A DNA stretch of 36,880 bases from the NCBI GenBank assembly GCA_018304505.1, contig JAGVWA010000020.1, positions 1 to 36,880 on the forward strand, given 5' to 3'. The notes below the pieces were generated by a model that saw nothing but the letters and a program-made list of their open reading frames with translations, did no database searches and was not told the DNA's origin. The DNA is from Nanobdellati archaeon. GTDB lineage: Archaea; B1Sed10-29; JAGVWA01. Below, piece after piece: positions 440-35,871 of this stretch (position 1 is its first letter; the number at the start of each line of letters is the position of its first letter). Position numbers and translations under genes: made by a program.

Positions 440-1573
440 ATGGGAATTCGTGGGCAGGTGGCTGCGGAATACGTTCTCTTAGTCGGCCTGCTGTTGCTTT
501 TAATCACGCCGTTCCTGTACTTCGGTTTCCAGAGTTCTGGCCAGCAAAGCAGGCTGCTGCAGGCCGAAAAACTCGTTTCGGATCTGGCGCAGGCTGCTGA
601 TTACGTGTATTCGCAGGGGGCCGGTTCCAGGGTGACGGTTTCTGGCATTATTCCTGGCGGTGTGACTTTTGAGGACTCGTATATTGGTAAGCCGCCCAAC
701 GCTACTGGCAACATTACCTCGAAGATCATTAATCTCGTGTTGCAGATAAACGGAATTGATCATGATGTTTGGAAGGAAACTGGTGCGGAGTTGTGTATTA
801 GCAGTCAGTGGCCTAGCGATTTTGGCGGCGCCTTTACAGGACCGGTTTTGTTTACGATAGAGGTTGAGGATGAGGGTTGCGTTTCAATTCTTCCGTTCGA
901 CGTGGGCTTCTTTGCAGAGCCACCAGTCATTGTTACTGATTGTATTACAGTGGGCGCGTCAGCGGGTTTCGTGATTACCCTAACCAATAATGATGAGGCA
1001 AACCCGGTAACGATAAGCGTTTCCGGTAGCGGCGCAGGCAGCAGCTTCATGTCGTTCAACAACACGAACGTGACGATTCCGGCAGACGGCACGGAAAAAA
1101 TACTTATGACGATAACGATTCCCACGGGGACATCGTTGGGTGTGCACTTTGGAAGCGTGGTTTTCCAGAGCAACGACACGGTTCAGGAAGTGCCGGTTGA
1201 CATCCTTGTTTGCGGCACGACTGATGGAAACCAGACAACAGAAGAGTGCTGTAATGCAACGTTGCTGAATTACACGATAGGAACGTTCGAGGATGAGGCT
1301 TGCTCTATTGCAGAAACAGTTTTTTACAAGCCAAGGACGACGGTTTTCAGCAGCACAGGTTGGCTTCCAGCTTCTAATCTGACCCTGGATTTAGATCACT
1401 CGAATACGAGCTCGGCAATTGGTTTCCCGGTCATTATCGCGGCAAATTCCACTGGTGGATTTAGTTACACATGGAATCCTGCCTTGCAGCCTGCCGATAA
1501 TTACTCAGTTTCGGTGACTGATGGCAACATCACAAGGTCAAATAATTTGGTGGTTAATGCATGTCCAACATAG
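440..1573 (+). CDS. Pilin-like secreted protein with Ig-like domain
   Basis: A 377-residue protein beginning MGIRGQVAAEYVLLVG, a typical archaeal class III (archaellin/type IV pilin-like) signal: a short basic start, then G/Q-x-x-x-E-Y and a hydrophobic helix to about residue 30. A prepilin peptidase would be expected to cut just before the hydrophobic stretch. The rest is extracellular in character: Thr/Asn/Ser-rich, many N-x-S/T sequons, and an Ig-like/CARDB-like beta-sandwich around residues 155-260 (DCITVGASAGF to VDILVCG), then a Cys-containing second domain (ECCNATLLNY). It is much longer than a standard pilin (about 150), so it may be a tip or adhesive minor pilin. The ATG at 440 fits the TATA box at 411. 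Its last 13 bases overlap the adhesin gene, so the two are probably co-translated. Confidence 0.75.
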   Translation: MGIRGQVAAEYVLLVGLLLLLITPFLYFGFQSSGQQSRLLQAEKLVSDLAQAADYVYSQGAGSRVTVSGIIPGGVTFEDSYIGKPPNATGNITSKIINLVLQINGIDHDVWKETGAELCISSQWPSDFGGAFTGPVLFTIEVEDEGCVSILPFDVGFFAEPPVIVTDCITVGASAGFVITLTNNDEANPVTISVSGSGAGSSFMSFNNTNVTIPADGTEKILMTITIPTGTSLGVHFGSVVFQSNDTVQEVPVDILVCGTTDGNQTTEECCNATLLNYTIGTFEDEACSIAETVFYKPRTTVFSSTGWLPASNLTLDLDHSNTSSAIGFPVIIAANSTGGFSYTWNPALQPADNYSVSVTDGNITRSNNLVVNACPT

Positions 1574-4500
1574 CTCGAAGTTTGATGGTTGCCATGTTAG
1601 TGGTCTTGCTTATGTTTACAGGTATTGCTACTGACGCGACGATGTCTTACTATGACAGCGGTTCATCGTCAAGCCCAAAAATTCGACATTGGGATGAAGT
1701 GTCATGGTCAAGCGTGAGTAGTGCCGTGAGTACCGGGAACAACGATAACTTTCATGTTTTGAAAGCTTCACCTGTAAAGGATGAATTCATCCTCGCAGTT
1801 TCTGATTCTAGTAAGGATGTTAATGTGCAGGTGTACAACGGCTCTTCATGGGGAAATTTGGTTGAAGTGAGTATAGGCATCAATGATGCGGAGCAGCGTG
1901 GTTTTGATGTTGCTTATGAGTCGTTGTCTGGGGATGCGGTTATTGCTTATGGTGATGATCCCACGGATGGGATGTATTATCGTGTGTGGAATGGTTCTTC
2001 GTGGTCTTCGCAGGCGACGGTTTTTACGCACCCTAGTTCGGAGCCCGAGTGGGTTTCTTCGGCTTCGAATCCTTTTAGTGATGAGATTGTTGTTGTGTCG
2101 TTGCATCAGAATGGTGATGCGTATGCTGTGGTTTGGAATGGGAGTGCGTGGGGGGGTGAGTTTGAAATTTCTCCTAAGATTACGGATATTGATTCTACGT
2201 CGCCAGATGTTATGCCAATGGACGTGATTTATGAACAGCAGTCGGGCAGGGCTGTTGTGGTGTATGCAGAGGCTGTTACCACGCCACGTTACAGGATTTG
2301 GAATGGTTCTTCATGGAGTGCCGCGTCGAGCTTGAATTCTGTTGGATCTAGCGACGTGAAATTCATAAGGTTGGCCACAGACCCGAGCTCTAACACGATT
2401 TTGATGGGCAGCCTCGACGGTGGCAGCGATTTGAATGTGCAGGTATGGAATGGTAGCTCCTGGGGGACGAACACTGAATTGGATGACAGCATTGAAGGGA
2501 GCGTCGAAATGCACTTCGATGTTGCTTTTGAATCGCTATCTGGAAAGGGAATGGTATTGTTTGGCGACTTAGATCAGAATACCGCCGAGTATTATACATG
2601 GACTAGTGGTGGCGGTTGGAGTGCTTCGGCCCTTGCAGCAAGTGGAAATGATGACCCCCAGGTAGTCGAGTTAGAGGCCGACCCGAACAGCAACGAAATT
2701 TTTGGAATGATCGTTGACGTGCTCCTTGACGTGTCTGTTCAGAGGTGGACTGGTTCTGCATGGGTTGATTTCCAGGCAGTGGAACTTGGATCCAAGGCCA
2801 ATATGCACCCATTCGACATTGAATTCAAGCGTTATGTGCCGTCTGTTGCCAACGCTGTCACATTTGTTGACCCAACGCCTGCTAACGGATCTACAGTTAT
2901 CGTTGACAACGTTTTCATTAACGTTACGACGAACTTCGCCGGTTCAACAGGTTTGTTAGAGTGGAACGGCGTTAATGAATCAATGACTGTTGGCAACGCG
3001 ACAAATTTCTATAAAAGCAAAACTGGCCTTGCTAATGGTGTTTACACTTACCGTGTTTATGTGAACCATACAAATGGAACGTTCTATGTGTCTGAAACGC
3101 GAACTGTAGAAATCAGCGTGCTTGTGGTGTTTAATGGTACGGCGATGATGTCTTATTATGATGCTGGGCTCTTAGCGTTTCCGCAGATCCGCAGGTATAA
3201 TGGAAGTTCCTGGGGTGCTGCGGATAGTGCATTTGATACCGGCGGCAATGACAAGTTCCACGTGCTGGAATCTGCAACGACACGAAATGAGTTTGCTTTG
3301 GCTGTACAGGATGGAAGTGCTGATGTTAATGTGCAGATCTTTGATGGCGTTTCATGGGGTAACCTGTTGGAAGTTACTACAGCAGTAGATGAAACTGGCC
3401 AGAGGGGATTTGACATGGCCTATGAAACACTATCTGGAGACTTAATTATAGCTTACGGCAGCAATAACGACAACGAAGTCAGGTACAGGGTCTGGAACGG
3501 CAGCACATGGACTAGCGAGGCCTTTGCCATCAAGAATTCTAGCGCTACAACCGAGGCACAGTGGATAAGGCTTGTACCAAGTCCGTTAACAGATGAGGTC
3601 ATCCTAGTTGCAGGTCATGAAGATGGCGACGGCTTTGTCCAGGTCTGGAATGGAAATTCGTGGACAAACAACATTGAAATTTCAGCAAATCTTGAAGGCC
3701 TAGAAGGAACGGACACTGACACAATGGCCTTTGATGCAATTTATGAACAGCAATCGGGTCGCGGGGTAGTTGTTTACGCAGAGGATGGGTCAAGCAGTCC
3801 GAAATACAGGACATGGAATGGTTCATCTTGGTCTTCTGAGTTGAGCTTGAACAGCGTTGGTAGTAGTGATATGCGCTGGATTCGTTTGGCTGCAGACCCT
3901 GGCTCGGACAGAATCATTATGGCGAGTGTCGATTCCAGCAGCGATTTGAATGTGCAGGTTTGGAGTGGGTCTTCTTGGGGAAGCAACACTGAGCTTGATG
4001 GAAGCATTGAAAGTTATACAACAAGGACGTTTGACGTCGCTTTCGAGACGAGCAGTGGCACTGGCTTGCTGTTGTTCGGCGACTCGGATCAGGATAGGGC
4101 AGAGTACTATACATGGACTAATACTAGCGGATGGAGCACATCCGCACTTGCAGCCGCTGGCACCACTGATCCAAAAATGGTCCGCTTGGTTTCGAGCCCT
4201 GCTAGTGATGAAATGTTTGGAATGATCATTGACGATGGCAGTGACGTTAGTGTGCAAAGGTGGACGGGCTCTGCATGGACTGATTTTTTAGAGGTCGAAA
4301 CAGGCTCGATAGCCCTCAATTTCCCATTCGCAATCGTTTATGGCAAGGCGAATGTGACTCCACCAGCTGTTGGAAACCAGGTTACGTTCGTTGCGCCAAC
4401 CCCTGCAAGCGGCGCGGACTTGAATGCAACATCGTTAGTAATAAACGTCACGACAAACTTCAACGGCTCTACGGGAATTCTTGACTGGAACGGAACAAAT

Positions 4501-5940
4501 CAGACGATGGTCAATGCTAGTGCTACGAATTACTATCAGAACAAAACTGGCCTTGCTAATGGTCTTTACACTTACCGTGTTTATGTGAACCACACAAATG
4601 GAACGTTCTATGTAACAGAGGCACGCAACGTCACGATAAACTTCACGTTTGACTATAATCCTGGTTCCCTGACGGTCTCGCAGAAAAATCTGACAAATTG
4701 CCCAACCAGGATATGTATTAAGATCACGAAGAGCAAGCCCAGTACGTACAGCAAGATCCTACTCGATCCTGGGAACGTGACGCAGCTGCAGAACCTGAGC
4801 ATTTCAGAGGACGAGCACATCGAGTATTATAACTTGACGACGACTGACTTGACGGGAAACTGGACAGTCCAGGTTTCGGAACTGTTCTGTCGGCTAGACC
4901 TTGAATTCAACTTAACTGTGCTTGATCAACCCGTCAACGAAACCGGCGACGGAGAACCGCCGGATGACGATGATTGTACAATATTCGCTATTGATGACGA
5001 TCAGGATGAGTTGCAGGTCATCGACCTGTTCGGGTCGCTGAACATCACGATTATTGGTGAAACTAGAACGAGCAGTGGGAAATTGATTGACGAGATCGAG
5101 TCACTAGAAATGATTGGCGAAGATCTCTACGGCGCAACAGACATTGGAGGTAAGAATTCAAGGTTCTACAAAATCAACCCCAAAACAGCACAGACAACCC
5201 TCATCGGCGATACTGGGTATGAGGACATTGAAGGCCTTGCATATGATGAAATCAATGGCATAATGTATGCAATTAGCGGCGCCACAGATCAACTTTTAAC
5301 AATAAACATAACCACCGGCGCTGCTACCGCGATCGCTAACATAAGCCTGAACGTGAAAATCGAAGGCCTGGCTTACGACGCAACAGAGAATGTGTTGTAT
5401 GCGGCTGACGACTCGACGAATAAGTTGTTAAAGATCAATATAAGCACTGGCATTGCAACAGATTTGGGGCTTATCCAACTTGATGGTGAAACGTTGACGC
5501 ACATTGAGGCGCTCGAAATTCTACCCTCCAGCATGTTGATCGGAGCAAACGACAAGACCGGAGTAATAGTGTCGATAAGCAAAACCAACGCCGTAGCAAC
5601 GAGACTGACGCCCGACAACACACACCCGGATTATGAGGGCATGGTGTGCTCACTAACGGTGTCTCTTGACGACATCTGCGTTGACAGGGACAACGATGAC
5701 ATTTGCGACAACATTGACGCGTGTGTTGATGAAGACGATGACGGTGAATGCGACGATGTCGACATGTGCATCGACGATGACGACGATGATGACTGTGATG
5801 ACGTTGACGACATATGCATAGATAGGGACCATGATGAAGATTGTGATGACGTTGACGCTTGCGTTGATGAAAACGATGACGGCAAATGCGACCTTGGGGT
5901 GTGTGATGACGATGACAATAATGATTTCTGCGATGGCTAG
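1561..5940 (+). CDS. Giant secreted adhesin-like repeat protein
   Basis: A 1,459-residue protein with an N-terminal signal helix (residues about 5-25). Residues 28-529 and about 530-1028 are two copies of one module: repeated strands with the motif WNGSSW spaced like beta-propeller blades, followed by an Ig/Fn3-like unit (starting near residues 433 and 941; TPANGST, GLANGVYTYRVYVNHTNGTF). A different propeller-like region follows from about residue 1139 (EGLAYD repeats). The last 90 residues are Asp-rich repeats (D-x-D-x-D-D-x-C-D), like thrombospondin type 3/dockerin calcium-binding loops. No C-terminal membrane anchor or sorting signal is seen. The ATG overlaps the end of the pilin-like gene. 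Inference: a surface or pilus-associated, calcium-stabilised adhesin. Codons at about 1900-2330 are strikingly T/G-rich compared with the second copy. Confidence 0.8.
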   Translation: MSNIARSLMVAMLVVLLMFTGIATDATMSYYDSGSSSSPKIRHWDEVSWSSVSSAVSTGNNDNFHVLKASPVKDEFILAVSDSSKDVNVQVYNGSSWGNLVEVSIGINDAEQRGFDVAYESLSGDAVIAYGDDPTDGMYYRVWNGSSWSSQATVFTHPSSEPEWVSSASNPFSDEIVVVSLHQNGDAYAVVWNGSAWGGEFEISPKITDIDSTSPDVMPMDVIYEQQSGRAVVVYAEAVTTPRYRIWNGSSWSAASSLNSVGSSDVKFIRLATDPSSNTILMGSLDGGSDLNVQVWNGSSWGTNTELDDSIEGSVEMHFDVAFESLSGKGMVLFGDLDQNTAEYYTWTSGGGWSASALAASGNDDPQVVELEADPNSNEIFGMIVDVLLDVSVQRWTGSAWVDFQAVELGSKANMHPFDIEFKRYVPSVANAVTFVDPTPANGSTVIVDNVFINVTTNFAGSTGLLEWNGVNESMTVGNATNFYKSKTGLANGVYTYRVYVNHTNGTFYVSETRTVEISVLVVFNGTAMMSYYDAGLLAFPQIRRYNGSSWGAADSAFDTGGNDKFHVLESATTRNEFALAVQDGSADVNVQIFDGVSWGNLLEVTTAVDETGQRGFDMAYETLSGDLIIAYGSNNDNEVRYRVWNGSTWTSEAFAIKNSSATTEAQWIRLVPSPLTDEVILVAGHEDGDGFVQVWNGNSWTNNIEISANLEGLEGTDTDTMAFDAIYEQQSGRGVVVYAEDGSSSPKYRTWNGSSWSSELSLNSVGSSDMRWIRLAADPGSDRIIMASVDSSSDLNVQVWSGSSWGSNTELDGSIESYTTRTFDVAFETSSGTGLLLFGDSDQDRAEYYTWTNTSGWSTSALAAAGTTDPKMVRLVSSPASDEMFGMIIDDGSDVSVQRWTGSAWTDFLEVETGSIALNFPFAIVYGKANVTPPAVGNQVTFVAPTPASGADLNATSLVINVTTNFNGSTGILDWNGTNQTMVNASATNYYQNKTGLANGLYTYRVYVNHTNGTFYVTEARNVTINFTFDYNPGSLTVSQKNLTNCPTRICIKITKSKPSTYSKILLDPGNVTQLQNLSISEDEHIEYYNLTTTDLTGNWTVQVSELFCRLDLEFNLTVLDQPVNETGDGEPPDDDDCTIFAIDDDQDELQVIDLFGSLNITIIGETRTSSGKLIDEIESLEMIGEDLYGATDIGGKNSRFYKINPKTAQTTLIGDTGYEDIEGLAYDEINGIMYAISGATDQLLTINITTGAATAIANISLNVKIEGLAYDATENVLYAADDSTNKLLKINISTGIATDLGLIQLDGETLTHIEALEILPSSMLIGANDKTGVIVSISKTNAVATRLTPDNTHPDYEGMVCSLTVSLDDICVDRDNDDICDNIDACVDEDDDGECDDVDMCIDDDDDDDCDDVDDICIDRDHDEDCDDVDACVDENDDGKCDLGVCDDDDNNDFCDG
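3018..3089 (+). repeat. 72-bp direct repeat inside adhesin gene, copy 1
   Basis: These 72 bases match 4542-4613 with only two differences, although the surrounding modules have diverged far more. They encode the TGLANG to NHTNGTFYV part of the Ig-like unit. Confidence 0.85.
4542..4613 (+). repeat. 72-bp direct repeat inside adhesin gene, copy 2
   Basis: Second copy of the 72-bp segment at 3018-3089. The near identity against a diverged background suggests gene conversion or strong constraint. Confidence 0.85.
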
Positions 5941-7313: not shown

Positions 7314-8384
7314 ATGATAAACGGAGGCAAGGGCTTCATTTTCACGTTGGCAGCAACCGCGGCATTCATTATGATTTTAGCAGCCATGGTGTTCTTCATT
7401 ATCAACCAGGCGCAGAAGAGCCCCCTGCTCATTAATGTCAAGCAGAACATGGGCCTTCAGGATTCTGTTTTCAAGCTTTTGAATGACAAGCTCATGTTAA
7501 ATCATTCACGGACAAGCAACACCTATATGATTACAGAGGCGTATGCCCCGACCAAGCAGTCGTCGTTGGCAACAAAGGTGGCGTCGATAGCCGCGATTGC
7601 AAATACCACAGCATTCCGGTCTGGCCTGAACTTCTCGTTCAACAACCAGGGCTTCTCGCTGCTGAACCTGAGGTCAAAGGGTTTCTCCTATTACTGGTTG
7701 TCCAACACGGATCTGCTGATTGAGGCGAACTCAAGCCATGAAAACTTCACAGCGTTGAATTTGTCTTTCTCCACAACCGCGAACTCAAACAACATAACCA
7801 ACAACTGCTCAGGCAGCGGTAATGTAACAATCACCGTGGCTTCAAATAATCAACAAGCGTCAGCGACACCAACAGGGAGCTGTACGATAACCATCAATTA
7901 CCCAAGTAATTCGATTGCCGTGAACTACATCAGCGACAATTCCTGGAACGTGTCGTTCGCTGGCATGCCAGACAACGCAGTAATCACGGCTAACATTTCA
8001 GTAAGCCCAGGCACGAATTTCGCAGACTTCAGCAGCATAATTTACAGGGCAACGCTGACGACATCCAACCCTGGAGTTACGGAACCAACATACCCTGGCA
8101 CAACTGCTGCGATAAAATACTTTGGAAACGTCACTGTGGAAGCCCAGGTATACCAAGTAATCGTTATTGATTATGACAATGATTCGGTGTATGAATCGGC
8201 ATACTTTGACGTGGATCAGGACAACGCCTTTAACAGCAGTGCAGACCTTAAGTTAGTGAGGCGGGGCGTAGCAATATATTTAAACAACAGGGTCCTTCTA
8301 GTGGACAGTGGCACTGCGGAAATCACCTTACTGAGTAAGCTTGGCGTTTTCGCAAAACGAGGGGAAGTTACAGTGATTCGATGA
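7314..8384 (+). CDS. Large pilin-like surface protein
   Basis: I start this gene at ATG 7314 (MINGGKGFIFTLAATAAF), giving 356 residues. The frame is open back to 7185, but that longer start would lie deep inside the previous gene and place 43 charged residues before the signal. The N-terminal helix ends near residue 30. The long Asn/Ser/Thr-rich ectodomain resembles a secreted beta protein, and a D-x-D-x-D stretch near residue 290 (DYDNDSVYESAYFDVDQDN) could bind calcium. It lies 8 nt after the previous gene and overlaps the next by 4 bp (ATGA). Probably a longer pilus subunit or tip protein. Confidence 0.7.
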   Translation: MINGGKGFIFTLAATAAFIMILAAMVFFIINQAQKSPLLINVKQNMGLQDSVFKLLNDKLMLNHSRTSNTYMITEAYAPTKQSSLATKVASIAAIANTTAFRSGLNFSFNNQGFSLLNLRSKGFSYYWLSNTDLLIEANSSHENFTALNLSFSTTANSNNITNNCSGSGNVTITVASNNQQASATPTGSCTITINYPSNSIAVNYISDNSWNVSFAGMPDNAVITANISVSPGTNFADFSSIIYRATLTTSNPGVTEPTYPGTTAAIKYFGNVTVEAQVYQVIVIDYDNDSVYESAYFDVDQDNAFNSSADLKLVRRGVAIYLNNRVLLVDSGTAEITLLSKLGVFAKRGEVTVIR

Positions 8385-9127
8385 AGGAAAACATTGAGAC
8401 GAAGGCTGACCAGCTGTATAGCATGGTGATAAAGCAGAAGAAAATAAGCATTAGCGAGGTAGCCAAGGTCTTGGACATGGAGCCGCAGCTTGCAGAAAAA
8501 TGGGGCAAGGTGCTGGCAGAGGACAAGTTCATAAGAATGGTTTACCCGTCAAACATCCTGCAGGAGCCGTACCTTGAAGCTGTGGCAGAAATTGCTGAAG
8601 CCCCAAAGACCAAAAAATCAGACAACATCTTCGACATCTTGAGAAAAGGCCTCGTTGGTTTCGAGGAATGGAAGGAGGAAAAAATGCAGATGAAGGCAAA
8701 GCTCGAGAAAATAGAGCAGACGGAAAAGGAGTTCTTCAAAAAGCACAAGGAGGAAATTAAGGCGCAAACAGGGATGAAACACAGGGCCAAGGCGCTCCCA
8801 AGCAGCCTCATGGACAGGCAGGCCGCCAAGAGGCTTGAAAACCTGAGGCTCGTCAATGAAGCAGAAGCCAAGAAGGCAGAAGGCGCACTACTGGAAATGT
8901 ACAACGCAGGCCTTGTTGGAAAAAAACTCAGCGATGATGAACTAAAGCAGGTCCTCAGTGATCCGCAAAAGGCGATTGAAAATGCGCAAGCGCCAGACAA
9001 GGCAAAAGAAAGCATGGACAAGCGATATGTAAAAGCGATATCCGCAAGGGCAAAACAAGTAGTGACAAAACAGGTGGTCAAGAGCAAACCAGAGAAAGCA
9101 CCCCGGATAAGCAGCAAAAAGAAGTGA
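8381..9127 (+). CDS. Winged-helix protein with PDCD5-like segment, pilus operon
   Basis: 248 residues, cytoplasmic, Lys-rich. Residues about 5-60 look like a winged helix (SISEVAKVLDMEPQLAEKWGKVLAED), as in archaeal DNA-binding or cytosolic accessory proteins. Residues about 95-135 are a charged coiled coil. Residues about 144-194 (RLENLRLVNEAEAKKAEG, then YNAGL and DDELKQVL) closely follow the core helices of the PDCD5 DNA-binding family, including the PDCD5 gene at 20193 in this same window (RLANLRLANEEMAEQIEA, HQAGQL, DGDLKQLL). The C-terminus is a basic tail. The gene overlaps both neighbours by 4 bp, between a pilin-like gene and the ATPase, so it is likely a pilus regulator or a cytosolic adaptor of the ATPase. 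The domain combination is unusual and I know no named family for it. Confidence 0.7.
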   Translation: MKENIETKADQLYSMVIKQKKISISEVAKVLDMEPQLAEKWGKVLAEDKFIRMVYPSNILQEPYLEAVAEIAEAPKTKKSDNIFDILRKGLVGFEEWKEEKMQMKAKLEKIEQTEKEFFKKHKEEIKAQTGMKHRAKALPSSLMDRQAAKRLENLRLVNEAEAKKAEGALLEMYNAGLVGKKLSDDELKQVLSDPQKAIENAQAPDKAKESMDKRYVKAISARAKQVVTKQVVKSKPEKAPRISSKKK

Positions 9128-10650
9128 TGGAGAAGGGATTAATAATGGATAAAGAGTTAGAGGGCTATGAAATAACCGCAGCGGGCCTGGTGGCAAGGAT
9201 CTCGATCGTGGACGAGGGAAAGTTCGTGCCGCGCTACAAGGTAACGTTTCCCCAAATCGGTCACGCCACGTTAATGATTCTGGATAGCGTCAGGGACGAA
9301 TTGATTAAGCAGACAACGGTAAAGGCCAAGGAGATACTTGATCCAAAAATTGCGAGGATCATACAGAAGAGGTTCGCTGACAAGGCCGAGGAATTAGTGT
9401 CGCGTTATTTTCCTGGCATTGATACAATAAGCAAGGGCGAGCTCGTTGGCCTTCTCGTGAACGACATGGTTGGCCTTGGAGAAATCGAGGTGCCCCTAAA
9501 TGACGACGCCCTCGAGGAAATCGTAATCAACAACGCTGCAGAGCCCCTGTGGGTTTACCACAAGCGCTACGGCTGGTTGGTGACTAACATTACTTTGGAG
9601 GACGAGGAAAAAATAAAAGACTATGCAAACCTAATCGGCCGGCGGGTTGGAAGGCAGATAAATACCCTGACACCGCTTATGGATGCTCACATGCTCGAGG
9701 GAGACCGTGTCAACTCAACCCTGTTCCCGATTTCTACAAAGGGCAACACGGTAACAATTAGGAAATTTGCGAGAAAACCGTGGACTGTGACAGACCTTAT
9801 TCAACTGAAAACCTTTAATGATGAAATTGCGGCCTTGCTCTGGCTGGCAATGCAGTATGAATTAAACGTGCTTGTCAGCGGTGGAACCGGTAGCGGTAAG
9901 ACGAGTGCGCTCAACGTGCTCATGCCCTTTGTTCAGCCAAATCAGCGCATCTTGTCAATTGAAGACACGCGCGAATTGAACCTGCCGAGTTATCAGCATT
10001 GGGTTCCAATGACGACAAGGGATCCGAATCCCGAGGGCAAGGGGGAAGTAACAATGCTTGACCTGATGTTGAATGGGCTCAGGATGAGGCCCGACCGGAT
10101 AGTTGTCGGTGAAATCAGAAAGCGGGCAGAGGCCGAGACCTTGTTTGAAGCGATGCACACCGGCCACGCGGTATACTCAACGCTGCACGCAGATCGTGCT
10201 GAACAGGTCAAGCGAAGGCTGACAACGCAACCAATAGACATTTCAGAAGCCCTTCTGGAATCATTGCACATCGTGCTGGTGCAGTACAGGCACCGTAGGC
10301 TGGGCATAAGAAGAACCCTTGAGCTGGCAGAAGTAGTCCCGGTCGGCGCCGGGGGTGATGAAGTTACCATAGACATGCGCACGCTTTACAGGTGGAAGCC
10401 GCGTCAGGACACTATTATGAGAGAGAAGCCGTCTGTGCGGCTATTCGGCGAAATCGAGTCACTGACGGGTTTGCTTGAGTCGGAAATCAAAGAAGACCTG
10501 GAACAAAAGAAGTCAATTTTGAAGTGGATGGTTAACCAAAACATAAACGACGTTGACGTGGTCGGGACTCTGATGGCCAGGTACTACCGTGACCCCAGCG
10601 ATTTAATCAAGCTCGCAAGGATTAATAAGCCATTCACGCCCGAAGAATAG
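9124..10650 (+). CDS. Type IV pilus/archaellum-type assembly ATPase (GspE/VirB11 superfamily)
   Basis: 508 residues, the usual length for archaeal FlaI/PilB-like ATPases. It powers subunit insertion at the inner face of the membrane. Visible motifs: Walker A GGTGSGKT near residue 253; Asp box IEDTREL; Walker B region RPDRIVVGEIR near residue 325; His box HTGHAVYSTLHAD. An N-terminal domain precedes residue about 120. A GTG at 9124 overlaps the previous stop (GTGA); ATG at 9127 or 9145 are alternatives. It is followed by two platform proteins, the standard gene order of archaeal type IV pilus systems. It is more likely a pilus than an archaellum ATPase, since FlaH, FlaG and FlaF homologues are not next to it. 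Confidence 0.95.
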   Translation: MMEKGLIMDKELEGYEITAAGLVARISIVDEGKFVPRYKVTFPQIGHATLMILDSVRDELIKQTTVKAKEILDPKIARIIQKRFADKAEELVSRYFPGIDTISKGELVGLLVNDMVGLGEIEVPLNDDALEEIVINNAAEPLWVYHKRYGWLVTNITLEDEEKIKDYANLIGRRVGRQINTLTPLMDAHMLEGDRVNSTLFPISTKGNTVTIRKFARKPWTVTDLIQLKTFNDEIAALLWLAMQYELNVLVSGGTGSGKTSALNVLMPFVQPNQRILSIEDTRELNLPSYQHWVPMTTRDPNPEGKGEVTMLDLMLNGLRMRPDRIVVGEIRKRAEAETLFEAMHTGHAVYSTLHADRAEQVKRRLTTQPIDISEALLESLHIVLVQYRHRRLGIRRTLELAEVVPVGAGGDEVTIDMRTLYRWKPRQDTIMREKPSVRLFGEIESLTGLLESEIKEDLEQKKSILKWMVNQNINDVDVVGTLMARYYRDPSDLIKLARINKPFTPEE

Positions 10651-10673: not shown

Positions 10674-11567
10674 ATGATTAAGTTACCTTTCCTCCCAATA
10701 AGCATCGAAAGGCTGGAGCGCATATCGAGAGTTTTTCTAGGGGTCGGGAAGCAACTTGAAGGCATGTTTCCGTTTCTTGAATCAGACCTGATCCAGCTTG
10801 AGGAGGACATTGAAGCGAAGCAGTACCTGTCCATCGCAATAATCGCCTCGATTTATGGATTTGTAATGGCGTTAGTGCTAACGTATTTACTGGTAACGAC
10901 TACCCTTAGTGGATCGGCCGGCCAGCTGATGATTTATATTCCAGTAGCAGGGCTCGTATTGGGGCTAGTGACATTTCTCCAGACCGTTTACTATCCAAGG
11001 TTGCTGCTGCAGAAAAAGGCAAAACGCCTGAACCGTGATTTGTTGTTTGCCTTGCGCCATATTCTTGTGCAGCTGAATTCAGGAGTGCCATTGTACGAGT
11101 CAATGGTCTCTGTGGCATCCGGGGACTATGGCGTTGTGAGCGAGGAATTTGGAAAGGCGATTAAGGAAATCACTAGCGGTGGCGTGTCTCAGACTGACGC
11201 GTTGGAGAACATGATAGTCAGAACCCCGTCAACGTTCTTGCGCAGGGCGGTTTGGCAGATCTCCAACGCGCTCAAGGCCGGCTCTGACCTTGTTATGGTA
11301 ATGTCTGATCTTGTAAAGGATTTTTCAGAAGAGCAGAGGGTGACGATCCAGCGCTTTGGCAGGGAACTGAGCCCGTGGGCCCTGATGTACCTTCTGCTTA
11401 CAGTGGTTTTTCCGAGCATGGGTGTCGCCCTCATTATTATTCTGAGCTCGTTTATAGGGTTTGAAGTCGGCGCAGACTTCCTTCTCTCCCTTACAGGGGC
11501 CTTTATAGCGATGCAGTTCTTCTTCATTAAGTTCCTAAAAAGCAAGAGGCCGGACGTGAGAATATGA
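10674..11567 (+). CDS. Type IV pilus membrane platform protein 1 (T2SSF/TadC-FlaJ family)
   Basis: 297 residues with hydrophobic segments near 60-80, 85-105 and two at the C-terminus, framing a cytoplasmic helical domain (NRDLLFALRHILVQLNSGVPLYESM) that is the T2SSF signature region. It forms the membrane base that the ATPase acts on. It starts 23 nt after the ATPase and overlaps the next gene by 4 bp (ATGA). Confidence 0.9.
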   Translation: MIKLPFLPISIERLERISRVFLGVGKQLEGMFPFLESDLIQLEEDIEAKQYLSIAIIASIYGFVMALVLTYLLVTTTLSGSAGQLMIYIPVAGLVLGLVTFLQTVYYPRLLLQKKAKRLNRDLLFALRHILVQLNSGVPLYESMVSVASGDYGVVSEEFGKAIKEITSGGVSQTDALENMIVRTPSTFLRRAVWQISNALKAGSDLVMVMSDLVKDFSEEQRVTIQRFGRELSPWALMYLLLTVVFPSMGVALIIILSSFIGFEVGADFLLSLTGAFIAMQFFFIKFLKSKRPDVRI

Positions 11568-12577
11568 AGCTCAGCGACAGGGTATACTTTACTGTGCAGA
11601 AGTTTTTGCCCAGGTTCTATGTTGAAATAATTAGCAGGAAGATACGGTATGCCAACATCAAGATCCAAAAAGAGGTGTGGGCAGGCTTTACATTCATGGT
11701 ATCGCTTTTCATTTCGATATTAATCACAGTGGTTATGGCTTCTCAAACCCAGTCGCAGGGTCTGCTGATAGCGTTTTTCCTTGGGGTGTTCTTCGCAGTG
11801 TCGTATACTATATATGTTATTGTGCAGCTAATGTCAGACCAGCGTACGCAACAGATAGAAAATGTATTGCCAGACGCGCTGAGGTTGATTTCGGCCAACA
11901 TAAAAGTTGGCATTACGCCTGACAAGGCGCTGTTTCTGTCAGCGCGCCCTGAGTTTGGGGTCTTCAGCGACGAGATACTACGCGTAGCTGAGGAAACGAT
12001 AGCTGGAAAGACAATTATGCAGGCTATGGTAAGAATGACCGATAGAACCGAATCGGTCTTGTTGAAGCGCGTCGTGGAGCTCATTAATGAGGGCCTGAAT
12101 TCAGGCGGCGAGCTGGCTTCCTTGCTTGAGAAAACCGCTGACGACATAAGGGTGTCAAGTGTATTGAATCAGGAGATACAATCAAACATAGGCAGCTACG
12201 TGATTTTCATGATGCTCGCCGTACTCATCGCAGCGCCGATGCTCTACGCAACGTCGATGAATTTTATTGTGTTGACAGATAGCATAAAGCAGTCCATAGG
12301 CCTGGAAGCGCTTTCGCAAGCAGCAGTGACAGGCGTCAACATCCCATTCATCGGGTCATCCAAGCAGATAAGCATAGACTTCGGGGCCCTGAGGCTGTTT
12401 TCAGTGATCAACATTTCGATCTCGGCGTTCTTTGCGTCCATGCTGCTCGGTATATTCAGGGATGGCCAGGAGCGCACAGGCCTACCCTATGTGCCGGTTT
12501 TCATCATTGGCGGTCTCCTTGTTTATTTCATCGCAGACGCGCTCATTGGGGGCCTGATGGCGGGTTTCTTCAGCTAA
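11564..12577 (+). CDS. Type IV pilus membrane platform protein 2 (T2SSF/TadC-FlaJ family)
   Basis: 337 residues, a second T2SSF-type protein: transmembrane helices near residues 42-62 and 66-90, the helical domain IENVLPDALRLISANIKVG and a second repeat-like region NEGLNSGGELASLLEKTADD, then several C-terminal membrane helices. Archaeal pilus systems often encode two such proteins or one fused pair; here they are separate and translationally coupled (4-bp overlap). Last gene of the operon. Confidence 0.9.
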   Translation: MKLSDRVYFTVQKFLPRFYVEIISRKIRYANIKIQKEVWAGFTFMVSLFISILITVVMASQTQSQGLLIAFFLGVFFAVSYTIYVIVQLMSDQRTQQIENVLPDALRLISANIKVGITPDKALFLSARPEFGVFSDEILRVAEETIAGKTIMQAMVRMTDRTESVLLKRVVELINEGLNSGGELASLLEKTADDIRVSSVLNQEIQSNIGSYVIFMMLAVLIAAPMLYATSMNFIVLTDSIKQSIGLEALSQAAVTGVNIPFIGSSKQISIDFGALRLFSVINISISAFFASMLLGIFRDGQERTGLPYVPVFIIGGLLVYFIADALIGGLMAGFFS

Positions 12578-12656: not shown

Positions 12657-12669
12657 AGAGGTGTATAAT

Positions 12670-13128
12670 ATGAGAAAAGGACAAGGCGCGTTCGAGTACA
12701 TCATGACCTACGGATGGGCAATCATCATCGTGATTATTGTCGGAATCATCCTGTACAACTCAGGTGTGTTCGGCCAAGCAACAGAAAGCCAGCAAGGGTT
12801 CATTAGAATCAGGCCCGCAGACTTCATATTCGGGGTCAACAACGCCTCAGTGAATGGAACCTCAACAATTGTCTGGGACAACGTCGCAGGACAGTCTTTG
12901 AAGGACGTCAACATCACCTATGATGGCGACCAAGACGGCGTCTTTGAAGACCAGGGATTCAGCGGAAACATCAAGGCAGGAAAAAGAGAAACGGATTCGC
13001 TGTTCATTTCAAGTCTTGAGTGTGGCGATGGAGATGCAGCGGTTGTTGACGCAAAGGTTTCATACAGAACAGAAGCGGGCGTAACAAGGACTGAAACTGG
13101 AACCATTAGAGGAACCTGTTCAGCTTAA
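12670..13128 (+). CDS. Major pilin-like protein 1
   Basis: 152 residues from ATG 12670: MRKGQGAFEYIMTYGWAI, an excellent archaeal class III signal with the mature N-terminus probably at the Q-G-A-F-E-Y boundary, followed by a long hydrophobic helix (to about residue 33). The globular domain ends with Thr-rich strands and one Cys pair (LECGDG and GTCSA) that could form a disulphide. A GTG nine bases upstream is in frame, but the ribosome binding site GAGGTG seven nt before the ATG decides for 12670. Own TATA box, own strong terminator and a near-duplicate next door suggest a highly expressed structural pilin. Confidence 0.85.
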   Translation: MRKGQGAFEYIMTYGWAIIIVIIVGIILYNSGVFGQATESQQGFIRIRPADFIFGVNNASVNGTSTIVWDNVAGQSLKDVNITYDGDQDGVFEDQGFSGNIKAGKRETDSLFISSLECGDGDAAVVDAKVSYRTEAGVTRTETGTIRGTCSA

Positions 13129-13138
13129 AACCACAACT

Positions 13139-13178
13139 AACCCCGCACGGGGTTTTTTATCTATTTTTTTATTTTTTA
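13139..13178 (+). terminator. Hairpin plus T-tract after pilin 1
   Basis: AACCCC-GCAC-GGGGTT forms a six-base-pair stem with a four-base loop, followed by TTTTTT and further T-rich runs. It sits 11 nt after the pilin stop codon. Confidence 0.8.
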
Positions 13179-13221
13179 TTTCCCATAGCAGCAGCAATTT
13201 TTTCAAATAGTAGTAGCAATG

Positions 13222-13229
13222 TTTATAAA
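13222..13229 (+). promoter_or_regulatory. TATA box of pilin 2
   Basis: TTTATAAA lies 57 nt before the ATG at 13279, implying a leader of about 25 nt. Its separate promoter supports starting the protein at 13279 rather than at the in-frame ATG 13219, which lies upstream of the TATA box. Confidence 0.55.
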
Positions 13230-13278
13230 TGCGCGTGCCCTTATTTTGTATAAACAACAAACGCAGAGAAAGATTCAC

Positions 13279-13737
13279 ATGAGAAAAGGTCAAGGCGCGT
13301 TCGAGTACATCATGACCTACGGATGGGCCATACTCATCATCATTATAGTGGGCATCATCCTGTACAACGCAGGCGTTTTTGGCCAGTCGACTGAAAGCCA
13401 CCAGGGCTTCATTAAGGTACGGCCTGCCGATTTCTCATTCGGGGTCAACAACGCCTCAGTAAATGGGACTTCAACTATCGTGTGGGATAATGTCGCGGGC
13501 CAGAACCTGAAGAACATGAACATCACTTATGACGGGGATCAAAACGGGGTCTTTGAAACACAGGGCCTAACCGGAACAATCGGCACCGGCAACAGAAGGA
13601 CAGACTCTGTTTTCATTTCAGGCCTCAGTTGCCAAGACGGCGAGGCCGCAGTCGTTGACGTCAAGGTTAGCTATACCACGGAAACAAAGATCACCAAGAC
13701 AGAAACAGGAACCATCAGGGGAACTTGTGAAGAATGA
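13279..13737 (+). CDS. Major pilin-like protein 2 (duplicate of pilin 1)
   Basis: 152 residues from ATG 13279, beginning MRKGQGAFEYIMTYGWAI exactly like pilin 1. The two proteins are similar along their whole length, and the DNA is identical over 38 bp in the signal region (12682-12719 and 13291-13328) and 23 bp further on. The Cys pair is conserved (LSCQDG, GTCEE). The frame extends 20 codons further upstream, but that would place the TATA box inside the gene. The end of the gene is caught in a 22-bp tandem repeat (13722-13778). A recent tandem duplicate, possibly giving alternative pilus subunits. Confidence 0.85.
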   Translation: MRKGQGAFEYIMTYGWAILIIIIVGIILYNAGVFGQSTESHQGFIKVRPADFSFGVNNASVNGTSTIVWDNVAGQNLKNMNITYDGDQNGVFETQGLTGTIGTGNRRTDSVFISGLSCQDGEAAVVDVKVSYTTETKITKTETGTIRGTCEE

Positions 13738-13778
13738 GCAAGGCACTTGTGAAGAATGAGCAAGGAACTTGCGAAGCC
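13722..13778 (+). repeat. 22-bp tandem duplication across the pilin 2 stop codon
   Basis: A 22-base unit occurs at 13722-13743 and 13744-13765, with a third partial copy at 13766-13778. The third copy reads GTCEA-stop in line with the other pilins (GTCSA-stop), whereas the present protein ends GTCEE at the first copy. The last copy therefore probably preserves the ancestral C-terminus. Confidence 0.85.
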
Positions 13779-13816
13779 TAATCCTGATTGGTAGCTTTTT
13801 TCTTTATCATCATAAG

Positions 13817-13826
13817 CCTTATAAAC
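13817..13826 (+). promoter_or_regulatory. TATA box of pilin 3
   Basis: CCTTATAAAC begins 30 nt before the ATG at 13847, matching a leaderless transcript. Confidence 0.55.
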
Positions 13827-13846
13827 AGCCACTGCCTTTTTAGAAC

Positions 13847-14290
13847 ATGACGGTAGGCAAAAAGGGCCAAGGTGCAATGGAATACCTGATGAGTTATGGC
13901 TGGGCGCTAATAATAGTTTTGATCATCGGAATTGTGCTGTTTAACTCAGGCGTGTTCGACCAGAACGCCGAAAGCGCGACAGGCTGGATGCGCATACGGC
14001 CGAGCAACTTTAGATTCTCAATGACAAACCCGTCGCAGATCGCGTGGGACAACGTTGCCGGGCAGTCACTGCGAAATGTGACATTCACATACTCGGGGGA
14101 CTGCGTTGAACCTGCAGCGACAATTGGAAACATGGCTCAGGGCGCGCGAATAATAGACGCTGTCACGTGTAGCACAACCTGCTCGCCAATCGGCGCGGGC
14201 CTCGTGGTAAACGCAACAGTTGAGTATAGGACAGAGGACACCATTGAGCACAAGGAAGCTGTGAAAATCAGGGCGCTGTGTGAAACATGA
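13847..14290 (+). CDS. Major pilin-like protein 3
   Basis: 147 residues: MTVGKKGQGAMEYLMSYGWA, class III signal and hydrophobic helix to about residue 36. The early mature region (SGVFDQNAES, RIRPSNF, IAWDNVAGQSL) aligns with pilins 1 and 2, but the C-terminal half is diverged, with four cysteines (CVEP, CSTTC and ALCET). It is an older paralogue in the same tandem array with its own promoter. The next gene, a KaiC-like ATPase, starts 31 nt downstream and may be co-transcribed. Confidence 0.85.
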   Translation: MTVGKKGQGAMEYLMSYGWALIIVLIIGIVLFNSGVFDQNAESATGWMRIRPSNFRFSMTNPSQIAWDNVAGQSLRNVTFTYSGDCVEPAATIGNMAQGARIIDAVTCSTTCSPIGAGLVVNATVEYRTEDTIEHKEAVKIRALCET

Positions 14291-19648: not shown

Positions 19649-20368
19649 ATGGTTTCAGTGCTAGAAGTCAATGCACAGCAGCTCATAAACAACGTGGCAG
19701 AAAAGCTCAAGACACAATACAAGATACAGCAACCCGCGTGGGTAGGCTATGTTAAGACCGGCGTGCACAGGGAAAGGCGGCCCCAGAACGAGGACTGGTT
19801 CTTTGTTAGGAGCGCCTCAGTGCTTAGAAAACTTTACATTGAAGGTAACACCGGAGTGGGCAAATTCAGGGCCTGGTATGGTGGCAAGCAAACCAGAGGG
19901 GTGAAACCAGAACACCACGCTGACGCGTCAGGCAACATCATAAGGAAGTCACTCCAGTCCCTGGAAAAAGCAGGCCTGGTAAAAAAGGAAAACGTTGGTA
20001 GAATCATTACGCCGGAAGGCAGAAAACTGCTTGATAAGGCAACACTGGAGCTGCGCGGAAAGCGCGAGAAGGCAAAGCCAAAGCTCGAATTCCAGAAACC
20101 GAAGAAAAAACCGCAAGCGCAGCCAAAGGCGCCAGCAAAGCCACAGAAAATCGAATCAGAGGCTAAGACTGAAAAGAAGGAAGTGAAGAAGAGTGCAGCA
20201 AGAAAACCTGGACCAGCTAAGGCAGCAGCGACTAAACCAGCTGCTACAAAGTCAGCAAAACCAGGAACTAGCAAGACAGCAGGCAAAACTGCAAGTAAGG
20301 CAGGCGCTAAGAAAACTACTAAGCCCCCAGGCGCAGGAAAGGCTAGCAAACCTAAGGCTAGCAAATGA
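19649..20368 (+). CDS. rps19e: Ribosomal protein S19e with long C-terminal tail
   Basis: 239 residues; archaeal S19e is normally about 150. Residues 1-145 are ordinary S19e (QQPAWVGYVKTGVHRERRPQ, GVKPEHHADASGNIIRKSLQ, LEKAGLVKK), a small-subunit protein. The last 95 residues are a Lys/Ala/Pro/Thr-rich, probably unstructured tail (KPKKKPQAQPKAPAKPQK and on). From 20193 the same DNA also encodes the first 58 residues of PDCD5 in the +1 frame. Basic tails also occur on L31e and FtsY in this cluster, so the tail itself fits the organism; how far the overlapping part is functional is open. Confidence 0.9.
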   Translation: MVSVLEVNAQQLINNVAEKLKTQYKIQQPAWVGYVKTGVHRERRPQNEDWFFVRSASVLRKLYIEGNTGVGKFRAWYGGKQTRGVKPEHHADASGNIIRKSLQSLEKAGLVKKENVGRIITPEGRKLLDKATLELRGKREKAKPKLEFQKPKKKPQAQPKAPAKPQKIESEAKTEKKEVKKSAARKPGPAKAAATKPAATKSAKPGTSKTAGKTASKAGAKKTTKPPGAGKASKPKASK

Positions 20369-20516
20369 GGAAATGGCCGAGCAAATCGAAGCCCTGATAG
20401 TCTACATGCATCAGGCTGGCCAACTCAAGGCCCCACTACAAGACGGGGACCTGAAACAATTGCTGCTAACAATCAACGCACGCAACACAAGAAAAACTAA
20501 AATAACGAGAAAGTGA
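20193..20516 (+). CDS. PDCD5-family DNA-binding protein
   Basis: 107 residues from a GTG at 20193. The Gln/Leu/Arg-rich first helix (NLDQLRQQRLNQLLQ) and the core LLSPQAQERLANLRLANEEM, then MHQAGQL and DGDLKQLLLTI are the complete PDCD5 fold. Archaeal members bind nucleic acids; the exact role is unknown. The family nearly always follows S19e. Here 176 nt (20193-20368) overlap the end of the S19e gene in another frame. No later start is acceptable because the conserved core lies within the overlap. The next gene begins 4 nt downstream. Confidence 0.9.
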   Translation: MQQENLDQLRQQRLNQLLQSQQNQELARQQAKLQVRQALRKLLSPQAQERLANLRLANEEMAEQIEALIVYMHQAGQLKAPLQDGDLKQLLLTINARNTRKTKITRK

Positions 20517-28370: not shown

Positions 28371-28404
28371 ATATATGTTTTTTAACAAAAAGAGGTGTTT
28401 AACT

Positions 28405-28641
28405 ATGGTGTCAATAACAGTGTCGGTACCTGTTCATACAAAGGAACTTATGAATAAATTTTCTGAAATCAATTGGTCCGGCTTTGTCAGAAAATGCATT
28501 GAGCAAAAGGCCGACCAATTATCTTGGAAAGATGACATGCTTAAGAGGCTTAAGAAAGAGGAAGAATTTAGTGAATGGGCCGTTGAAACCCTGAAAATAT
28601 CCAGAAAGGGCCGGTTGCTGAAAAAGAAAGGTCTGATATGA
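28405..28641 (+). CDS. VapB-like antitoxin
   Basis: 78 residues from ATG 28405 (MVSITVSVPVHTKELMNKFS), preceded by GAGGTG 8 nt upstream; the open frame starts 10 codons earlier, but over TATA-like DNA. The beta strand followed by INWSGFVRKCIEQKA fits a ribbon-helix-helix-type N-terminus, and the charged C-terminal part should wrap the toxin. It overlaps the PIN gene by 4 bp. It is a paralogue of the antitoxin at 35606 (MVSMTLSIPAPLAQRMKKHS). Confidence 0.8.
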   Translation: MVSITVSVPVHTKELMNKFSEINWSGFVRKCIEQKADQLSWKDDMLKRLKKEEEFSEWAVETLKISRKGRLLKKKGLI

Positions 28642-29087
28642 TGCGGTTTGTTGTAGACTCAAATGTCTTATTCACCTTCTTCTGGAAAGGCTCGGTGTTT
28701 AAGAAGATTTGTACAGAACAAGACTGTATGTTGTTCACCCCTGAATTTGCCTTAGAGGGGATCAACAAACACCATGTGCAATTATTGAAAAAAACGGGCA
28801 TTTCAAGGAGTGAATTTAAGGAGTTGCTAAAAGAGCTTGCAGCAAGAGTTGAATTCATGCCCCTGGCGAACTATGGGCCTGCTATTAAGAAGGTCAAGAA
28901 ATTGTCAGGGTACTTTAGAAGTGAAGACCGATCAGAATTCCTTGAAGATTTAGATTTCTTTGCTTTAGCTTTGCACTTGGGGCTGCCCATCTGGTCTAAC
29001 GATAAGTTGTTAAAAAAGCAGCCAGAGGTTATCGCGCTTTCCACAAAAGAAATTATAGAACTGGTTGATGCTCAGCCTATTGAATGA
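28638..29087 (+). CDS. PIN-domain toxin (VapC-like)
   Basis: 149 residues. PIN acidic positions: VVDSNVLFTFF (first Asp near residue 7), a central Glu in FTPEFALEGIN, and EDLDFFALALHLGLPIWSNDKLLK near residue 115. PIN toxins are magnesium-dependent ribonucleases that cut tRNA or rRNA. Paired with the antitoxin upstream. Its last 11 bases overlap the end of rtcA on the other strand. Confidence 0.88.
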   Translation: MMRFVVDSNVLFTFFWKGSVFKKICTEQDCMLFTPEFALEGINKHHVQLLKKTGISRSEFKELLKELAARVEFMPLANYGPAIKKVKKLSGYFRSEDRSEFLEDLDFFALALHLGLPIWSNDKLLKKQPEVIALSTKEIIELVDAQPIE

Positions 29088-34881: not shown

Positions 34882-35082
34882 ATGAGTACAGTGACACTTG
34901 AGCAAATAAATAATGGTATTTTAGACATAAAACAAGAACTTGATGAAATAAAAGATTACCTTGAAGAGGAACAAATGGAACTTAGTGATGAAACCAAGAA
35001 AAGAATACAAGAATCACGAAGCAGGCCTATTTCTGAAATGAAGACGCAGAAAGAAATTGAAGAGAAGTACCATGAGCTTTGA
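34882..35082 (+). CDS. RelB-like antitoxin
   Basis: 66 residues (MSTVTLEQINNGILDIKQEL, DEIKDYLEEEQMELSDETKK), all helical and acidic with a basic C-terminal part. Typical of small archaeal antitoxins that sit before RelE. It overlaps the toxin gene by 11 bp. Family assignment rests mainly on the partner. Confidence 0.75.
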   Translation: MSTVTLEQINNGILDIKQELDEIKDYLEEEQMELSDETKKRIQESRSRPISEMKTQKEIEEKYHEL

Positions 35083-35326
35083 ATTGCGTTGGGACTTAAA
35101 AGCAGAAGAACAACTAGATAAGTTGCCAAAAGAAATTTCTATACGAATTGTTAAAAAAGTAGCTCAAGTTGCAGAAACTGGAAGAGGTATTGAAGCCCTC
35201 AAGGAATTTAAATATGGGCATAAGATCAGGGTAGGGGATTACCGGGCTCTAGTAGATGTTTATTACGATCCTGATCTAATAGTAGTGCGTGTTGTTGACC
35301 ACAGAGGCAAGATTTACAAGAGGTAA
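35072..35326 (+). CDS. RelE/ParE-family toxin
   Basis: 84 residues from ATG 35072 (MSFELRWDLKAEEQLDKLPK); the frame is open 5 codons earlier. It has the RelE pattern: F-x-L-x-W-x-x-x-A-E-x-x-L-x-K-L-P, the central RVGDYRALVDVYYDP and the end VVDHRGKIYKR, close to the archaeal RelE active-site region. Predicted ribosome-dependent mRNA endonuclease. The pair lies between the 118-bp repeats and splits a vapC gene. Confidence 0.88.
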   Translation: MSFELRWDLKAEEQLDKLPKEISIRIVKKVAQVAETGRGIEALKEFKYGHKIRVGDYRALVDVYYDPDLIVVRVVDHRGKIYKR

Positions 35327-35351
35327 TGTACCTATTTAAGAATAATAATAA

Positions 35352-35469
35352 GGCGTGGGTAGTGCTAAAGCAGGTCCTTGGTTTTCCACACCTTGATTTT
35401 GTTTTGTTTGTCAAAGTCTTTGTCTGCTGTCCAGAGGCCGTCGTTGTCAATTGAGAGTGCGAGGGCAGC
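35352..35469 (+). repeat. 118-bp direct repeat flanking RelBE-like cassette, right copy
   Basis: Second copy of 34649-34766. Here it is joined directly to the N-terminal part of vapC, out of frame. Confidence 0.92.
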
Positions 35470-35609
35470 AGGTCTATGTACATGAGGGTCTCTTGTAGGG
35501 CGTATTCGGGTATGAAGAGTTCGTGGGCTCCGCTGATAATGATTTTTCTAACACCAGAGTCTTTGATCATCGCTGAGAGCATTATGTTGGCGTCTACGAT
35601 GAGCCTCAT
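35470..35609 (-). pseudogene. vapC (PIN toxin) N-terminal fragment
   Basis: Reads MRLIVDANIMLSAMIKDSG, then ISGAHELFIPEYALQETLMY, the first 47 residues of a PIN domain with the first Asp and the conserved Glu. At 35469 it joins the repeated C-terminal segment in the wrong frame, so the open frame continues to 35226 as unrelated, Thr/Ser-rich sequence. The middle third of the domain is missing. Almost certainly inactive. Its antitoxin gene overlaps by 4 bp upstream. Confidence 0.85.
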
Positions 35610-35839
35610 GCTTTCATCAGCTCTTTGTGGCGTTGCCAGAGCCCCTTCTTGATTACATCATCCAGTTCTTCAACATCCCTGCTTGTCATTTGGCTTTTTG
35701 CGACGAGTTTGTCGAGTAAGTCTAGGTCTCTGATTTTCTGTTTTATTGCTTGCCGGGCTACGTCGCTCCAGTTCAGTTCTGAGTGTTTTTTCATCCTTTG
35801 TGCCAGCGGCGCGGGGATTGATAGTGTCATGCTAACCAT
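35606..35839 (-). CDS. VapB-like antitoxin (partner toxin broken)
   Basis: 77 residues from ATG 35839 (MVSMTLSIPAPLAQRMKKHS, ELNWSDVARQAIKQKIRDLD), clearly related to the antitoxin at 28405. The open frame reaches nine codons further up, into the operator. The gene is intact although its toxin partner is truncated and frameshifted; the protein could still bind its operator or neutralise related PIN toxins (inference). Confidence 0.8.
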   Translation of the reverse strand: MVSMTLSIPAPLAQRMKKHSELNWSDVARQAIKQKIRDLDLLDKLVAKSQMTSRDVEELDDVIKKGLWQRHKELMKA

Positions 35840-35850
35840 TTTTATCACTA

Positions 35851-35871
35851 CGTTTATTATGTGCATAAACG
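35851..35871 (-). promoter_or_regulatory. Palindromic operator of the vapB gene
   Basis: CGTTTAT (35851-35857) and ATAAACG (35865-35871) form an inverted repeat with a 7-nt spacer. A minus-strand TATA-like element (35871-35880) adjoins it. Binding by the antitoxin is the likely control. Between here and 36091 only a 30-codon frame (35938-36030) is seen and I do not call it a gene. Confidence 0.5.

Follow-up and report, generated by a model that had tools for sequence, protein, structure and literature searches.

PDCD5 is nearly always found as a single stand-alone copy per genome, and in archaea its role is poorly defined. The human protein is an open-state cofactor of the chaperonin TRiC (PMC11754096). 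The accessory proteins of archaeal type IV pili (T4P) have been collected in a census which, in the parts drawn on here, lists coiled-coil, KaiC, Zn-ribbon and transcription-regulator accessories and does not name DPANN as a group (PMC4858521). Neither the DPANN winged-helix (wHTH) family treated below nor a winged helix joined to PDCD5 is described in those same parts, and among the papers searched none named PDCD5 together with archaeal type IV pili.

Here we describe a gene in which a winged helix, a PDCD5 domain and a Lys-rich tail are joined, located in the window, by which we mean the whole 36,880 nt stretch of DNA that was analysed. Judged from sequence comparison, we propose with a probability of roughly 0.6 that the fusion protein works in the cytoplasm as an adaptor for the type IV pilus motor, its variable arm having been recruited from PDCD5.

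The fusion gene is part of an operon of pilin-like genes, a T2SSE ATPase, two T2SSF platform proteins, three PilA-like pilins and a RecA/KaiC-like gene (Table 1). The initial annotation had placed it in a pilus operon, with an overlap of 4 bp on either side, into a pilin-like gene and into the assembly ATPase. This agrees with the present analysis, the overlap with the ATPase being 4 bp with the GTG start at 9124 and 1 bp with the ATG start at 9127. Homologues of the upstream gene pil4 hold the same position in relatives, and no relatives of the window ATPase were found on viral contigs.

Some further features of the window were noted. The operon head (1561-5940, + strand) encodes a 1459-aa putative surface protein with repeated modules, which has an Asp-rich C-terminus resembling thrombospondin type 3 calcium-binding repeats and a relative in L042. 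Three pilin genes in a row (12661-14290, + strand) have very similar N-termini of the GQGAFEYIMTYGWA type and are likely duplicates of the major pilin. By eye, the small two-gene units at 28375-29087 and 35057-35866 resemble PIN/RelE-type toxin-antitoxin modules.

Table 1. Coordinates of the fusion gene, its parts and related genes in the window.
Feature	Positions	Strand	Basis or remark
pil4, pilin-like/minor pseudopilin gene	7314-8384	+	likely ATG start; ORF open from 7185
ATGA overlap, fusion gene/upstream pilin-like ORF	8381-8384	+	4 bp
wHTH-PDCD5 fusion gene, 248 aa	8381-9127	+	ORF; Pfam; own-genome search
Winged-helix domain, residues 1-65, pilus-ATPase-linked wHTH family	8381-8575	+	homologues, alignment
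Linker and long charged helix, residues 66-143	8576-8809	+	helix 80-143 in AF2 model
PDCD5 (PF01984) domain, residues 106-196	8696-8968	+	Pfam, profile, PDB search, fold search
Lys-rich tail, residues 197-248	8969-9124	+	net charge +11
GTGA overlap, fusion gene/ATPase ORF (or TGATG if ATPase start is 9127)	9124-9127	+	
FlaI/PilB-like assembly ATPase (T2SSE)	9124-10650	+	PF00437 E 4.9e-38; alignment
Two TadC-like platform proteins (T2SSF)	10674-11567, 11564-12577	+	PF00482 E 2.9e-17, 8.3e-12
Ordinary stand-alone PDCD5 gene after S19e (19649-20368)	20193-20516	+	

The PDCD5 homology within the fusion protein is real, and chance is excluded. A PDCD5-like segment had been noticed at about residues 144-194, and the match to Pfam PF01984 is in fact longer, covering residues 106-196 (E 1.2e-9, 38.7 bits, cut-off 26). 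It takes in the second half of the charged helix, whose counterpart in the HMM alignment, which starts at residue 107, is the N-terminal helix of PDCD5. Against a profile built on 16 PDCD5s from within the phylum the fusion protein scores 47.0 bits, as compared to 16.2 bits for the highest-scoring of 6000 shuffles (3000 global, 3000 local), 10.4 bits for the best unrelated ORF among 6713 (true PDCD5s set aside) and -10.3 bits for the reversed sequence. A phmmer search against the PDB gave six matches up to E=10, all of them PDCD5 chains. The NCBIfam equivalog PRK04239 is matched with 33.5 bits, far below its cut-off of 98. Both proteins are charged and helical, and the likeness might be thought to stem from shared helical composition without true homology. 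The shuffles, the reversed sequence and the 6713 ORFs rule out such a composition artefact as far as sequence statistics can do so, and with the PDB and fold searches also speaking against it we regard this reading as hardly credible.

The AlphaFold2 (AF2) model of the fusion protein has a mean pLDDT of 78, with block means of 89-97 over residues 101-200 and low confidence over residues 48-64. In a Foldseek search with this model the ten best structures were all PDCD5, and the five best PDCD5 structures reached VIA Z values of 8.0-9.8 across 80-98 residues; it should be noted that the AF2 input alignment contained PDCD5 rows, so that the agreement in fold is supportive and not independent. The unrelated fold that the initial annotation had allowed for at residues 140-200 was not seen in this model, which was guided by PDCD5 rows and has PDCD5s as its best solved structures. 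For residues 1-55 the fold matches were Lrp, IclR and MntR, all weak (Z about 4, low pLDDT).

The genome that holds the window has exactly two PF01984 matches, the fusion gene and the S19e-linked PDCD5. The nearest PDCD5s to the segment, over 52 core residues, are those of the relative G005 (44% identity) and of the own genome (40%). In the PDCD5 tree no branch is longer than that of the segment, which measures 2.8 where the median is 0.55. As the segment is nearest to these two and has a very long branch, its sequence points to a duplication within the lineage as the likeliest origin; the long branch could also reflect relaxed constraint. An assembly chimera with the S19e-linked PDCD5 was considered as well and is unlikely, given an identity of about 40% over the 52 core residues and a GC content that is continuous with the neighbouring genes.

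At the C-terminus, the basic motif [KR]-x-x-I-x-RK that is conserved in the PDCD5s of the phylum is absent from the fusion protein. Where PDCD5 has a conserved basic tail, the window protein carries a Lys-rich tail of 52 residues, and the basic tail described earlier was borne out by its charge (Table 1). A neutral or decaying fusion, in which the winged helix picked up behind it a duplicate of PDCD5 that is kept solely as a helical spacer, would agree with this loss of the conserved tail, with the long branch and with the occurrence in a single genome. However, in spite of its divergence the segment still shows the PDCD5 signature, the reading frame is unbroken throughout, and the gene sits within an intact operon with continuous GC content, hence we find such a fusion quite unlikely.

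PF01984 was further searched in about 480 distinct DPANN genomes. PDCD5 was present as one copy per genome wherever it was found, and no genome except that of the window had a second match over the cut-off, a 17-bit match in G067 falling below it. A search of the genome contigs with the whole fusion protein gave no orthologue. Long open frames were seen around some PDCD5 matches; one set of these were ordinary PDCD5s adjoining S19e, and the others were without a second recognised domain. The fusion is known from one MAG, which is 92.8% complete. A MAFFT alignment in which wHTH and PDCD5 rows were combined wrongly placed PDCD5 over the wHTH and was excluded.

With the whole protein as query, 19 genomes of the phylum gave PDCD5s along with matches to residues 1-65 located directly upstream of the pilus ATPase, which is also where the fusion gene lies. 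The window winged helix is 32-39% identical to those of L006-L009. We extended the search to another 80 ATPase loci, of which almost all are from DPANN, and then used an iterated wHTH profile. A wHTH was found in a gene at the ATPase in 73 of the 78 evaluable DPANN pilus loci, with two other genes in between in one family. The domain lies at the N-terminus of the protein in 27 cases and at the C-terminus in 32; in 8 it stands by itself, in 4 it is internal and in 1 (L045) it is fused to the ATPase, the remaining case being L079. The family shares the motif IETxxDxL...ExWAxxLExxGLxxxxYP, and 14 of 69 members match Pfam HTH_24 while others match MarR or TrmB; the N-terminus of the window protein itself has no Pfam match. 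The winged helix postulated at the N-terminus is assigned to this ATPase-linked family. It had been suggested that the same fusion be sought beside FlaI-like ATPases in DPANN genomes, and here the two halves of the protein part ways: the winged helix recurs at almost every such ATPase, while no second case of the PDCD5 fusion was found. The own genome has another pilus or archaellum-like cluster (L047:8086-12763, contig C19), in which the wHTH is C-terminal on another protein just before the ATPase.

The domains joined to the wHTH vary. Nine of the 69 proteins (L050:5357-5998 and eight others) have CBS domains fused to it and are encoded directly before the pilus ATPase, which suggests that adenine-nucleotide sensing may control DPANN pili. 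C2H2 zinc fingers were the partner in 4 of 69, SMC/Rad50-like coiled coils also occur, and predicted membrane helices were attached in about 14 of 73. At L045:7360-9105 the wHTH (46 bits) forms an N-terminal extension of the pilus ATPase itself and so provides a Rosetta-stone link. In one family (L038-L041, L043) the parts are split in the gene order wHTH of 75-92 aa, protein of 400-530 aa, protein of 90-119 aa and ATPase, the second being often Lys-rich at its end and the third having a C-terminal hydrophobic helix. L042 and L044 have a single protein that combines wHTH, coiled coil and membrane helix. Splitting and fusing of parts is the usual sign of one complex, hence we suggest that these parts belong together in one.

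An acidic putative recognition helix is shared by 85% of the wHTH family (family mean net charge of the helix -2.35), and Glu is conserved at four positions. In the window this helix (MEPQLAEKWGKVLAED, placed by alignment) has a net charge of -2 and is not basic as in the MarR/TrmB/Lrp regulators, though at a domain net charge of 0 the window winged helix carries less negative charge than the family does on average. The initial annotation had offered two options, a nucleic-acid-binding regulator or a scaffold of the motor. As a regulator of the pilus operon, the winged helix would read an operator and the basic PDCD5 part would add non-specific affinity for DNA or RNA. The resemblance of the family winged helix to HTH_24, MarR and TrmB, the regulator-like CBS-wHTH and C2H2-wHTH architectures, the charge of the basic tail and the Pfam name of PF01984, 'Double-stranded DNA-binding domain', would all be in line with this. 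On the other hand, the acidic helix, the membrane-anchored versions and the fusion to the ATPase favour contact between proteins, and the fixed site at the ATPase gene across phyla, often with overlapping frames, is as for a complex subunit. We consider the regulator possible but unlikely, and a protein adaptor the likelier of the two on these predicted features; the scaffold option is thus the better fit to the data.

Since human PDCD5 binds open TRiC, the PDCD5 arm might also be a co-chaperone tether that recruits the thermosome to the pilus base. A thermosome is encoded in the genome, and the AF2 model aligns with PDCD5 of the mouse PDCD5-TRiC structure 9unw. When mapped by alignment, the human contacts R55, K63, K66, I93 and L96 correspond to R151, N159, E162, K193 and L196 of the window protein. 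The R55 and L96 positions are kept while K63, K66 and I93 are not, although ordinary PDCD5s of archaea depart from the human residues at several positions too. The domain is homologous to that of the PDCD5-TRiC complex (PMC11754096; PDB 9unw), but most of the residues that contact the chaperonin have changed. The C-terminal tail conserved in PDCD5 is gone as well. Pilins are membrane proteins and are not known to be thermosome clients, and a tether seems very improbable to us. It would likewise be a long shot that the PDCD5 duplicate is a working motor subunit that couples pilus assembly to the chaperonin or to the translation machinery; if true, such coupling would be a link not known for any pilus.

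We return to the adaptor as the preferred reading. The N-terminal winged helix would be the form taken in this lineage by a module that is conserved in DPANN and acts together with the assembly ATPase, having lost any DNA-binding role and docking on the ATPase or the platform, most likely by direct binding. The C-terminal half would be an arm that varies by lineage, serving as membrane anchor, coiled-coil scaffold or CBS sensor. In the window genome this arm seems to have been replaced by a duplicated and strongly diverged PDCD5 followed by the Lys-rich tail, and we speculate that it serves as a helical protein-binding bundle with a scaffolding role. An old housekeeping domain was probably reused as part of the pilus machine.

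A recruited PDCD5 copy in a pilus machine would indicate that the bundle is able to serve as a module for interactions in places other than the one it normally occupies. Further, the wHTH proteins form a candidate adaptor family, fixed at the DPANN ATPase gene, whose sensor or scaffold partners can be exchanged (CBS, zinc finger, coiled coil, membrane helix, PDCD5), and give a concrete list of candidates for the control of attachment pili in these mostly host-dependent archaea.

Compared with described PDCD5s (MTH1615, 1eij; SSO0352, 6iqo/6iqc; human, 2cru/2k6b), the window protein shares the core motif RL-NLRL-N...A...E....MY.AG...K.SDDELKQ.L. Those proteins are stand-alone and about 80-125 aa long, whereas the domain here is part of a protein of 248 aa, behind an N-terminal wHTH and in a pilus operon, and while the PDCD5 genes examined adjoin S19e the fusion gene does not. 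With the DPANN pilus-ATPase-linked proteins (L044, L042, L053, L109 and others) it has in common the same winged helix in the same place before the ATPase gene, but their partner is a coiled coil, CBS, C2H2, a membrane helix or none, and never PDCD5. Among the T4P accessories, the coiled-coil arCOG07564 and others are, in the parts of the census drawn on here, intracellular proteins from T4P loci with a proposed role as regulatory subunit (PMC4858521), and in this respect they resemble the window protein.
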